Shown: piece by piece, positions 48,461 to 61,172 of the stretch
Layout: each line of letters starts with the position of its first letter
Position numbering within the stretch: position 1 is the stretch's first letter
Assembly: GCF_001311195.1 (NCBI RefSeq)
Contig: NZ_BBAJ01000002.1
Coordinates: 1-64,000 of the forward strand
DNA: 64,000 bases
From: Lacticaseibacillus camelliae DSM 22697 = JCM 13995
Lineage (GTDB): Bacteria; Bacillota; Bacilli; Lactobacillales; Lactobacillaceae
Direction of reading: 5' to 3'
Translations under genes and position numbers: made by a program
Notes under the pieces: generated by a model
Seen by the model: the letters and a program-made list of their open reading frames with translations, nothing else
What the model was told of the DNA's origin: nothing
Databases searched by the model: none

Positions 48461-48479
48461 GCGACGGACTTTTGATTAA

Positions 48480-48566
48480 GGAGAGTACAGGATTTGAACC
48501 TGCGCGCCGGTGTGAACCGGTTCGCCGGATTTCGAGTCCGGTGCATTACCACTCTGCCAACTCTCC
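48480..48566 (-). tRNA. tRNA-Ser(CGA)
   Basis: Read on the minus strand from 48566, a complete class II tRNA folds: acceptor GGAGAGT with ACTCTCC, a short D stem (GCA/TGC), anticodon stem CCGGA/TCCGG around CTCGAAA (anticodon CGA, reading UCG), a long variable arm with CCGG/CCGG, and a T arm GCAGG-TTCAAAT-CCTGT. CCA is not encoded: the bases after the acceptor read TTAATC. The discriminator position is therefore U, where G is usual for serine tRNAs. Confidence 0.95.
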
Positions 48567-52875: not shown

Positions 52876-52927
52876 TATAATCAATCATAAGAAACTCTGC
52901 AAAAGCACGTTTCAGACGTGCTTTTTT
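52876..52927 (+). promoter_or_regulatory. relA leader: -10 element followed by a terminator-like hairpin
   Basis: TATAAT at 52876-52881 is followed, 20 bases later, by AAAAGCACGT and ACGTGCTTTT pairing around TTCAG and running into TTTTTT (52901-52927). The hairpin ends 56 bases before the relA start. If the -10 is active, most transcripts would meet this terminator first. It could instead end the upstream operon. The -35 region is weak. Confidence 0.6.
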
Positions 52928-52983
52928 GGTCACTACGGGCGGCTGCTGACACGCTCCGGCTGCGCGCGAGAAAGGGGACTATC

Positions 52984-55207
52984 ATGGCAGAAGAACCAGA
53001 ACTGACGCAAGAGCAAGTGATGGCGCTGTGCGCGAAGTACATGAATGACGAGCACCTGGCCTTTGTGAAGAAGGCTTACGATTTTGCCGCGTATGTGCAT
53101 AAGGACCAAAAGCGAAAGTCGGGTGAGCCGTACATCATTCACCCCATTCAGGTGGCAGGCATTCTCGCCAACCTGAAGATGGATCCGATTACGGTCGCGT
53201 CCGGCTACCTGCACGATGTTGTGGAGGATACCAACATCACCCTCGGCGACATTCAGGAGATGTTTGGCAAGGAAACGGCTGTCATTGTCGACGGGCTGAC
53301 CAAGCTAAGCAAGGTCACCTACGTCGCCCACAAGGACGAACTGGCGGAAAATCACCGCAAAATGCTACTGGCGATGGCCAAGGACATGCGGGTCATTCTC
53401 GTCAAGCTCGCCGACCGCCTGCACAACATGCGGACCCTGATGCACCTGCGGCCGGACAAGCAGCGCCGCATCGCCAACGAAACGCTGGAAATTTACGCGC
53501 CGCTGGCCGACCGGCTGGGCATTAGCACTATCAAGTGGGAGCTTGAGGACCTGTCTTTGCGCTACCTCAACCCGCAGCAGTACTACCGGATCGCCCAACT
53601 GATGAAGTCCAAACGCACCGAGCGCGAGGAGTACATTGCCAAGGCCATTGTCGACATCAAAAAGGCCCTGGCCGACCTCAACATCCATTACGAGATCTAC
53701 GGCCGGCCGAAGCACATCTACTCCATTTACAAAAAGATGCGTGACAAGCACAAGCAGTTCGACGAGTTGTACGATTTGCTGGCCGTGCGCGTGATCACGC
53801 AAAACATCAAGGATTGCTACGCGGTGCTCGGCGTCATTCACACGCAGTGGAAGCCGATGCCAGGACGGTTCAAGGACTACATCGCAATGCCCAAGGCCAA
53901 CGGTTACCAAAGTCTGCACACGACTGTGATCGGGCCGATGGGCAAGCCGCTGGAGGTCCAGATCCGCACCGAGGAAATGCACCACGTCGCAGAATTCGGG
54001 GTCGCCGCCCACTGGGCGTACAAGGAAGGGCAGACTAGCGAGGTCCAGTACGACAAGGCCGGCAAGCAGATCGACATGTTCCGCGAGATCCTGGAGATCC
54101 AGGACGAGACCAACGATGCGCACGACTTCATGGACAGCGTCAAAGGCGACATTTTCACCGACCGCGTTTACGTGTTCACGCCGCAAGGGGATGTTTACGA
54201 ACTACCCAAGGGTTCCGTACCGCTTGATTTTGCCTACATGGTCCACACCGAAGTCGGCAATCACAGTGTCGGCGCCAAGGTCAACGGCAAAATCGTGCCG
54301 CTGAATTATCAGCTCAAAAACGGGGATATTGTCGAGATGCTGACCAACAGCAGCTCGAAGCCGAGCCGCGACTGGGTCAACATCGCCTTCACTTCGCGGG
54401 CCCGCAACAAGATCCGGCGCTACTTCAAGCAGGCCGACAAAGGCTAAAACTCCGAAAAAGGCCGCGAGGAACTTGAGCGGACCCTGACCGAAATGGGTTA
54501 TGCCCCGAAGGACTTCATGGGCCAAAAGCGGGACATGGGCGACTTGCTCAAGCGGCTGAACTTTGCGACCGAAGCGGAGCTACTCTCTGCGATCGGTTAT
54601 GGTGAATACTCCGCCAAGGTCATCGCCAATCGCTTAACTGAGCGGGTCCGCCGCGAGAAGGCCGACGCGACAAGAAGGCCAAGGAAGACGCGATCCTGGC
54701 GAATAACCAGAAGGTCACGACCATGTCCAAGGAGAAAAAGCCGGTTTCCCGCACCGAGGAAGGCGTCGTCATCGAAGGCGTCGACAACCTGCTGGTGCAC
54801 CTGGCTAAGTGCTGCAGTCCGGTCCCAGGCGATCCAATCATCGGGTACGTCACCAAGGGCCGCGGGGTCACCATTCACCGCGCGACTGCCCTAACGTTGA
54901 CAGCTCGCCGGCCATGGCCGGGCGCCTGATCGATGTCCGCTGGCAGAACCTGAACGACCAAAGTCAATTGTTTGACACAGAGCTGGAGATTTACGGCTAT
55001 AACCGCAACGGCCTGCTGAACGAGGTCCTGCAAACGCTGAATTCGCAGACGAAGAACCTGACCAACGTCAACGGCCGGGTCGATCATGACAAAATGGCGG
55101 ACATTCACGTGACCGTCGGCATTCCGAACCTGGGTGCCCTGGAGCACATGATGGATTCCATCAAGAACATTCCAGATATTTACGAAGTCAAGCGCGCTCA
55201 AGGCTGA
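52984..55207 (+). CDS. relA: Bifunctional (p)ppGpp synthetase/hydrolase RelA/Rsh (four indels)
   Basis: Reconstructed length is 741 residues. HD hydrolase (GYLHDVVEDTNITLGDI with intact HDxxED), synthetase (RFKDYIAMPKANGYQSLHTT), TGS domain (RVYVFTPQGDVYELPKGS), zinc-finger region with HLAKCCSPVPGD, and C-terminal ACT domain. It governs the stringent response. A compensating pair at 54439-54449 (one extra A, one missing A) turns DKAKNSEKG into an in-frame TAA at 54445; single bases are also missing near 54664-54669 (ADKKAKED) and 54880-54885 (HRADCPNVD). ATG 52984 has AAAGGGG. Confidence 0.95.
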
Positions 55208-57860: not shown

Positions 57861-57869
57861 AAACTCAAA

Positions 57870-58055
57870 TACAAGCGCCGATGAGGAAGCAGGATAGGTC
57901 AATTTCACGCAGCGACCCGGAGATGGTGAAAGCCGGGACCGACCGAAAAGACACTTCTGAGGCTGACGAGCTCCGGTTGCCACCGTTATGGCTGAGTAAA
58001 ACACAAGGTGGTACCGTGTCCGCACCCTTCGTCTATGACGAGGGGTGTTTTTTTT
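57870..58055 (+). promoter_or_regulatory. T-box riboswitch leader of hisS-aspS
   Basis: The apical part of Stem I is clear (AGCGACCCGG, then AGATGGTGAAAGCCGGGA, 57911-57938). The specifier region reads GACACTTC with CAC (His) at 57952-57954 and an overlapping GAC (Asp) at 57950-57952. The T-box sequence AAGGTGGTACCGTG (58005-58018) pairs with uncharged tRNA 3' ends through TGG. An 11-base-pair terminator stem (CACCCTTCGTC with GACGAGGGGTG) and eight T residues end at 58055. Uncharged tRNA would favour the antiterminator and expression of both synthetases. Confidence 0.93.
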
Positions 58056-58082
58056 GTTGGCTAAGCGTTTAAGGAGGAAAAT

Positions 58083-59359
58083 ATGAGTTATCAACGACCA
58101 AAAGGAACGGCAGATATTCTGCCGGGCCAAAGTGAGCTGTGGCAGCGTGTCGAAACGATCGCCAAAACCGTGATGGAAAATTACCGTTACCGCGAGATCC
58201 GCACGCCGCTGTTTGAAAGCTACGACGTGTTCGCCCGTTCCAGTGGTGAAACCTCTGATGTCGTGTCCAAGGAAATGTACACTTTTGAAGACAAGGGCGG
58301 CCGGCAAATGGCGCTGCGGCCAGAAGGCACTGCCGGCGTTGTCCGCGCCTATGTGGAAAACAAGCTGTATGGGCTGATCACCAAAAGCCGTACAAGGTCT
58401 ACTACATGGGCCCAATGTACCGTTACGAGCGGCCGCAAAGTGGGCGGCAGCGCGAGTTCCATCAAATCGGGGTGGAGGCGTTTGGCGTTGATAGTCCGGC
58501 CCTTGACGCCGAGGTGATCGCTTTGGCGAAGGACCTGCTAGAAGCGCTGGGGGCCAAGCAGCTCAAGTTCGCCATCAACACGCTGGGCGATCCCGAGTCG
58601 CGCGCGGCCTATCATCAGGCACTGGTCGCCTTCCTGACTCCGTTCAAGGATCAGCTGTCAGAGGATTCCAAGATTCGGCTGGAAAAGAACCCGCTGCGCA
58701 TCCTCGACAGCAAGGACAAGGGCGATCAGGCATCGTGGCAGACGCGCCGAAGATCCTGGATTACCTGACGCCGGCGGCCACCGCTCACTTCGAGGCCGTG
58801 CAAGGCTTTTTGAAAGACTTGGGGATCGATTTTGAAATCGACGCCGATATGGTGCGCGGGCTGGATTACTATAACCACACCATTTTTGAGGTTATGAGCA
58901 ACGACGCGGTATTCGGTGGCGGCTACACGACCGTGCTCGCCGGCGGCCGCTACAACGGCCTGGTCGAGGAACTGGGCGGCCCGGAGACTCCAGGCGTCGG
59001 CTTTGCCATGGGCGTTGAGCGCGCGATGCTACTCCTGTCAGGCCAGAAAGTTCAGGAAAGCCTGCCGGTTTACATCGTTGCCATCGATTCGGCTGCGCAA
59101 GGGCCGGCCCTGCGGCTGGCGCACGCGCTGCGGCTGCAAGGCGTTGAGGTCGACATGGACTTCCAAGGCCGCAAACCCAAGGCGCAGTTCAAGTCGGCAA
59201 ACAAGGACAACGCGCAGCTGGTCATGACGTTAGGGGAAAGTGAGCTTCAGGCCGGCACGATTCAGGTCAAAAATATGCAAAGCGGTGTGCAAAAAGAATT
59301 TAAGCAGGCCGAGGTCGAAGCAGACCTCAGCAAGCTCGCCGCACAATTGGAGGCAGATC

Positions 59360-59367
<8 letters not shown>
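58083..59367 (+). CDS. hisS: Histidyl-tRNA synthetase (two frameshifts)
   Basis: Reconstructed length is 428 residues. Class II motif 2 is [17 protein letters not shown], the histidine-specific block is [13 protein letters not shown], and motif 3 includes [13 protein letters not shown]; the C-terminal anticodon-binding domain follows ([18 protein letters not shown]). One base is missing near 58371-58375 ([16 protein letters not shown]) and one near 58729-58733 ([16 protein letters not shown]). AGGAGG lies 8 bases before ATG 58083. The stop overlaps the aspS start by 8 bases. It is controlled by the upstream T-box. Confidence 0.95.
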
Positions 59368-61155
<1,788 letters not shown>

Positions 61156-61172
61156 CTGAATAATGAGCACTG

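Follow-up and report, generated by a model that had tools for sequence, protein, structure and literature searches.

The leader in front of hisS and aspS in Lacticaseibacillus camelliae DSM 22697 raises the question of whether a single T-box RNA answers to one tRNA or to two. Its specifier region contains GACAC (57950–57954; positions are those of the window, the whole 64,000-nucleotide stretch of DNA analysed here), in which the aspartate triplet GAC (57950–57952) and the histidine triplet CAC (57952–57954) have C57952 in common. This arrangement, described in an earlier sequence-only reading of the locus, was confirmed; the same reading proposed that the leader could sense either uncharged tRNA, in which case the supply of two unrelated synthetases would be linked through a single RNA. 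Both the GACAC overlap and the dual-tRNA idea are already in print. In the available text of PMC5313534, the only paper among the matches listed in which GACAC, T-box and specifier occur together, GACAC is called characteristic of hisS-aspS T-boxes, and Gutierrez-Preciado et al. (2009) are cited there as suggesting tRNA-Asp as the main partner. An excerpt of PMC4342826 cites the same study for a pair of alternative structures through which both tRNAs are sensed, and in the accessible part of PMC7927825 the hisS-aspS operon of MRSA is spoken of as having a histidine T-box.

A cmscan search of 381 bases, together with a whole-genome search, gave a T-box leader (RF00230) at 57872–58032 on the + strand, with a score of 44.5 bits and an E-value of 9.2e-9. 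The score is below the Rfam gathering score of 93, and the default scan of the window therefore listed only a tRNA gene. Such a low score is normal for L. camelliae, since 29 of the 30 RF00230 matches listed in its genome, the hisS-aspS leader among them, fall under the gathering score and one passes. The alignment to the covariance model covers its full length (1–219) and includes Stem I with a specifier loop. The leader also has the T-box sequence with the UGGN bulge (AAGGUGGUACCG at 58005–58016), a competing intrinsic terminator and, downstream, the amino-acid genes hisS and aspS. The tRNA gene in the window (48479–48566, − strand) has a long variable arm and by eye a CGA anticodon, and probably encodes tRNA-Ser. 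Elsewhere in the genome, four leaders (L138, L146, L147 and L150) on visual inspection carry ATG in the specifier region, with AATGGTACC replacing GGTGGTACC at the bulge. Four near-alike leaders (L007, L134, L136 and L139), in which C or T separates TGGACCAC from GAGG, look like duplicates, and their specifier reads by eye as Trp TGG or Thr ACC.

In the covariance-model alignment the specifier columns of the consensus are taken up by GAC, the column after them by A57953 and the first helix column by C57954, so that GAC lies inside the specifier loop, as the proposal of dual sensing had presupposed. The 5′ side of this loop is the seven-nucleotide CAGGATA (57890–57896, + strand), matching the RF00230 consensus, and the 3′ side has nine nucleotides. 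Directly below the loop, the 5′ strand GGAAG (57885–57889, + strand) of the Stem I helix pairs with the 3′ strand CTTCT (57954–57958, + strand), in agreement with a blind frame call. That call and the alignment also agree on a single purine, A57953, as the spacer between specifier and helix. GAC is thus the in-frame specifier (Asp), while the overlapping CAC (His) is out of frame and ends on the first base of the helix, C57954. The canonical Stem I with its five lower pairs has a folding energy of −13.0 kcal/mol, which changes to −10.1 kcal/mol with the C57954 pair open and to −9.0 kcal/mol with two pairs open; freeing CAC would accordingly cost 2.9 (one pair) or 4.0 (two pairs) kcal/mol, measured from a canonical stem that does not have the lowest energy. 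An alternative fold of the isolated Stem I is better (−16.3 versus −13.0 kcal/mol), and the isolated stem is no more stable than shuffled sequences (z +0.90), so that the case for the canonical stem comes from homology, not from energy. Further downstream, UGGU of the T-box bulge (58009–58012, + strand), the element that pairs with the NCCA end of a tRNA, is followed by an intrinsic terminator (58022–58056, + strand) made of a 12-bp hairpin (58022–58048) and a T run; the fold of 57996–58056 is strong, with −23.7 kcal/mol and a z-score of −3.55.

The genes hisS (58083–59367, + strand) and aspS (59360–61164, + strand) follow, both with interrupted reading frames in this assembly (2.54 Mb, 161 contigs, 84.5% completeness). 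Their identities come from NCBIfam matches on the pieces of the broken frames: TIGR00442 is the best match on three pieces of hisS, and NF001750 and TIGR00459 match two pieces of aspS, the end of which was taken from alignment with the closest relative, G007. Compared with G007, in which both genes are intact, the frames are broken by insertions or deletions of single bases, and the breaks are therefore likely to be assembly errors. None of these differences lies within 57866–58053. Over the start of HisS the window and G007 are 97% identical, and the leader (57875–58035) differs between them at a single base, in the terminator loop, so that the specifier region cannot be put down to faulty assembly. 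Upstream in the window (52918–54900), the frame of a gene that is probably relA is also interrupted. The location of GACAC in the specifier region of a T-box before hisS-aspS, a further element of the sequence-only reading, is thus borne out by the RF00230 match, the specifier columns and the NCBIfam genes. Among 61 named leaders that received a call, counting L009 and L010 and reading L026 and L041 at their own coordinates, 60 have aspS adjacent to hisS; at the remaining one, L085, the contig ends first.

For the comparison within Lactobacillaceae, 154 regions upstream of hisS were examined, 12 of which were dropped for lack of the strict GGTGGNACC motif near GTTA or GATA, leaving 142 that were counted. 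The specifier site was assigned manually, by reading the sequence, in 18 of the Lactobacillaceae leaders and in 12 leaders from outside the family. In this set, which was searched for GAC only and in which many leaders are close relatives and hence not independent events, GAC was present in the specifier region of 141 leaders. CAC was found in 94 and CAY (CAC or CAU) in 96 of the 142, so that the comparison of hisS-aspS leaders, which had been put forward as a check on dual sensing, upheld GAC but not its partner. The GAC triplet is followed by 13 kinds of dinucleotide, namely AC (94), GC (11), GT (7), AA (6), CA (6), AG (5), TG (3), TT, CC and AT (2 each) and TA, GG and GA (1 each). GAC without CAY occurs in 45 of the 141 leaders, spread over 14 of the 36 genera. 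Within Lacticaseibacillus all 30 leaders have GAC, as GACAC in 25, GACGC in three and GACAA in two, the five without CAY being L104, L105, L106, L110 and L118. The sole counted leader of the family that lacks GAC at the specifier is L232 (GAAGCTACTTTTGAG). Judged from the aligned leaders, GAC at the specifier position is not a product of chance (141 of 142), and the overlapping CAC is close to background level.

The level of that background was taken from histidine T-boxes upstream of hisZ-like genes. A search of 121 genomes with TIGR00443, in which hisS itself was listed below the hisZ-like matches, provided a control set of 30 loci of best matches (L294–L323), one of which passes the curated cut-off and 29 of which have a T-box motif; all six loci checked out of the 30 match the hisZ model best, above the hisS model. 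The specifier frame was called blind, from the helices and loop motifs near the site and with the triplet ignored. A blind search of the whole leader produced many spurious stems in divergent Lactobacillaceae leaders (GAC in 50 calls), and the anchored call was adopted for this reason. In the hisZ-like leaders CAC was in frame in 27 of the 29 calls, the other two being ACA, and the triplet was followed by a purine in 26 of these 27. Among the Lactobacillaceae hisS leaders with CAY, the call fell on the GAC frame in 71 of 96 and on the CAC frame in four, with the rest at other offsets, and for GAC leaders with CAY from outside the family the corresponding numbers were 60 and two of 70, again with the rest elsewhere. 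For Lactobacillaceae leaders as a whole the caller picked the GAC frame in 87 of 141 and missed it in 54.

The hisZ-like leaders furthermore show how readily a histidine codon can appear at this place. By eye, A and then a pyrimidine follow CAC in 24 of the 29, where such an overlap carries no additional meaning, and the overlapping CAY of hisS leaders is therefore regarded as background; exact CAC two bases on is found in 11 of the 29 controls versus 94 of the 142 Lactobacillaceae hisS leaders. The pheS-pheT T-box of the same genome (TTC-A-CTTC / TTC-A-CTTCTTGAG) contains CAC as well. Overlapping triplets in T-box loops thus invite over-interpretation: where the last base of the triplet is C, the usual A comes next and the helix opens with C or U, a histidine codon arises of itself.

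The partner of the third CAC base was read across Stem I after the lower and upper helices had been searched with this one pair left out of the score. Of the 325 assigned leaders, 308 were above the score limit and entered the table. Within Lactobacillaceae, C faced G in 78 of 103 leaders, U faced A in five of seven, A faced U in eight of 14 and G faced C or U in five of six. Outside the family, GAC leaders had C-G in 32 of 40 and U-A in 45 of 45, with A paired in none of 10 and G in three of eight, and leaders assigned AAC had C-G in 62 of 71 and U-A in four of four. The third CAC base thus appears to pair across Stem I, with a pair type that varies with the base in most groups, though not universally; the result is support and not proof, since the neighbouring pairs were used in choosing the register.

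The acceptor end points in the same direction as the frame. N of UGGN is U in all 142 Lactobacillaceae hisS leaders, and in L. camelliae tRNA-Asp has G73 and tRNA-His has C73, so that the U can pair with G73 of tRNA-Asp and not with C73 of tRNA-His. In the 29 hisZ-like leaders N is A in 15, G in nine and U in five, and UGGU alone consequently does not exclude tRNA-His. UGGA and UGGG predominate in L294–L323 even though A cannot pair with C73 of tRNA-His. As the position is mixed in histidine T-boxes, and as TBDB left the discriminator out for histidine (PMC7778990, in the part available), the UGGN evidence is supporting only.

It is most probable, with an estimated probability of about 75%, that the leader is an ordinary transcription-antitermination T-box read by tRNA-Asp and that the CAC overlap is a by-product. 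The anatomy, the frame, the conservation of GAC, the pairing of the third CAC base in most leaders and the terminator are observed here, and the tRNA binding and regulation are what we infer: the GUC anticodon of uncharged tRNA-Asp would pair with GAC at 57950–57952 and its GCCA end with UGGU at 58009–58012, upon which the terminator at 58022–58056 would not be formed and hisS-aspS would be transcribed. The overlap would arise from the usual make-up of the loop, in which the last base of the triplet is C, the spacer is A and the helix begins with C. Alternatively, this loop might shift its register by two bases, open the first pair or pairs of the helix and so read either tRNA-Asp or tRNA-His, with a shortage of either raising both synthetases. 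The two overlapping codons do match the tRNAs of the genes downstream, dual sensing of hisS-aspS leaders has been suggested before (PMC4342826, excerpt), and for C. acetobutylicum a two-codon T-box with overlapping Asn and Glu codons, on which both tRNAs were tested, is credited to Saad et al. (2013) in an excerpt of PMC4052509, in line with the earlier statement that two overlapping specifiers had been described for other tRNA pairs. CAY also accompanies GAC in 96 of 141 leaders in Lactobacillaceae and in 70 of 104 outside, accompanies AAC in 78 of the 80 leaders assigned that triplet in place of GAC, and its exact form, CAC, occurs more often than in the hisZ controls.

Such a two-codon loop is nevertheless unlikely here. 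Its two codons are not both kept among relatives in Lactobacillaceae (GAC in 141 versus CAY in 96 of 142), almost a third of the GAC-keeping leaders doing without CAY; CAC stands outside the frame used by histidine T-boxes and is followed by a pyrimidine where the control triplets have a purine; A and a pyrimidine come after the triplet just as often in controls in which they have no meaning; and UGGU cannot pair with C73. Dual sensing is accordingly weakly supported: from the proposal that either tRNA is sensed, the T-box, GAC in its loop and the overlap of CAC have stood, whereas CAC as a working second specifier has not, being out of the standard frame and, in most leaders, reaching with its last base into the Stem I helix. 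A T-box reading CAC only, with GAC as a chance neighbour, would suit hisS as the first gene, the grouping of the MRSA leader with histidine T-boxes in the accessible part of PMC7927825 and the nearly constant CAY of AAC-assigned leaders, but it is very improbable given the wrong frame of CAC and the presence of GAC in 141 versus CAC in 94 of the 142 Lactobacillaceae leaders.

Beyond Lactobacillaceae a sharper question emerges, namely why so many leaders carry AAC (Asn) where others carry GAC. The outside set, which is not an even sample and again includes many close relatives, comprised 216 loci, of which 26 without the motif were dropped and 190 kept, and 184 were assigned after a search for NAC triplets. 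Of these 184, 104 received GAC and 80 AAC, totals that are partly selected because the search gave a bonus to GAC or AAC. CAY is present in 70 of the 104 GAC leaders and in 78 of the 80 AAC leaders, and N of UGGN is C in 58, U in 45 and A in one of the former and C in 48, A in 24 and U in eight of the latter. AACAC or AACAU, which can be read as an in-frame Asn or an out-of-frame His codon, is seen in many hisS-aspS leaders of Bacillaceae and Planococcaceae (e.g. L019, L023, L031, L350 and L371); these and the other taxon labels on families outside Lactobacillaceae are inferred. Two genomes of one genus (L413 and L399, family f29) have AACGC upstream of hisS, with neither GAC nor CAY. The eight leaders of a staphylococcus-like family, f14 (L406–L408, L410, L411, L417, L426 and L430), carry AACACAAGAA, which parses as AAC-A-helix or as GAA-CAC-A-helix; the automatic assignment at first gave CAC for three of them and AAC was entered manually, and only four of the eight came out as AAC in the blind call.

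These leaders allow the tentative and rather doubtful suggestion that across Bacilli the in-frame specifier of hisS-aspS leaders corresponds to a tRNA substrate of AspRS rather than of HisRS, namely tRNA-Asp in the GAC leaders of Lactobacillaceae and many other groups and tRNA-Asn in the AAC leaders of many Bacillaceae and Planococcaceae; if true, leaders of the AAC type would place hisS-aspS under the control of uncharged tRNA-Asn. AspRS is reported to charge tRNA-Asn also, for the amidotransferase route, in B. subtilis and B. halodurans, and a response of AAC leaders to tRNA-Asn would fit such enzymes. In the AAC set without f14 (n = 72), the blind call fell on the AAC frame in 60 leaders and on the CAC frame in two, and the third CAY base was mostly paired (C-G in 59 of 67, U-A in four of four), to which the two AACGC leaders lacking CAY may be added. 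In two AAC families, f8 and f40 (one genome each), tRNA-Asn and tRNA-Asp have G73 and tRNA-His has C73; with N being C in 40, A in 24 and U in eight of the 72, UGGC or UGGU fits G73 of tRNA-Asn in 48. Against the suggestion, CAY is retained in 70 of the 72, which is what one would expect of a histidine reading, and the 24 with UGGA, the commonest form in histidine T-boxes (15 of 29), pair with neither G73 nor C73. The f14 leaders moreover parse also with CAC in frame, as noted above, and the MRSA leader is called a histidine T-box in the accessible part of PMC7927825. An Asn reading of hisS-aspS leaders was not found in the literature among the matches listed, PMC4206432 naming T-boxes, in its available text, in the reference list only.

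Among known systems, the leaders of Gutierrez-Preciado et al. (2009), described for bacilli and lactobacilli, are identical to the present one in operon and in GACAC, and within the excerpts available no essential difference is seen. The hisZ-like histidine T-boxes of Lactobacillaceae share architecture and family with the hisS-aspS leader, but have CAC in frame, a purine next to it and mostly A or G in UGGN, where the hisS-aspS leader has GAC and UGGU. The Asn and Glu codons of the two-codon T-box of C. acetobutylicum are reportedly one base apart. As far as the excerpt of PMC4052509 describes it, that T-box resembles the hisS-aspS leader in holding two overlapping codons in one specifier loop, whereas the leader of L. 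camelliae, known here from sequence alone, differs from it in a two-base offset and in a second triplet that reaches into the helix.
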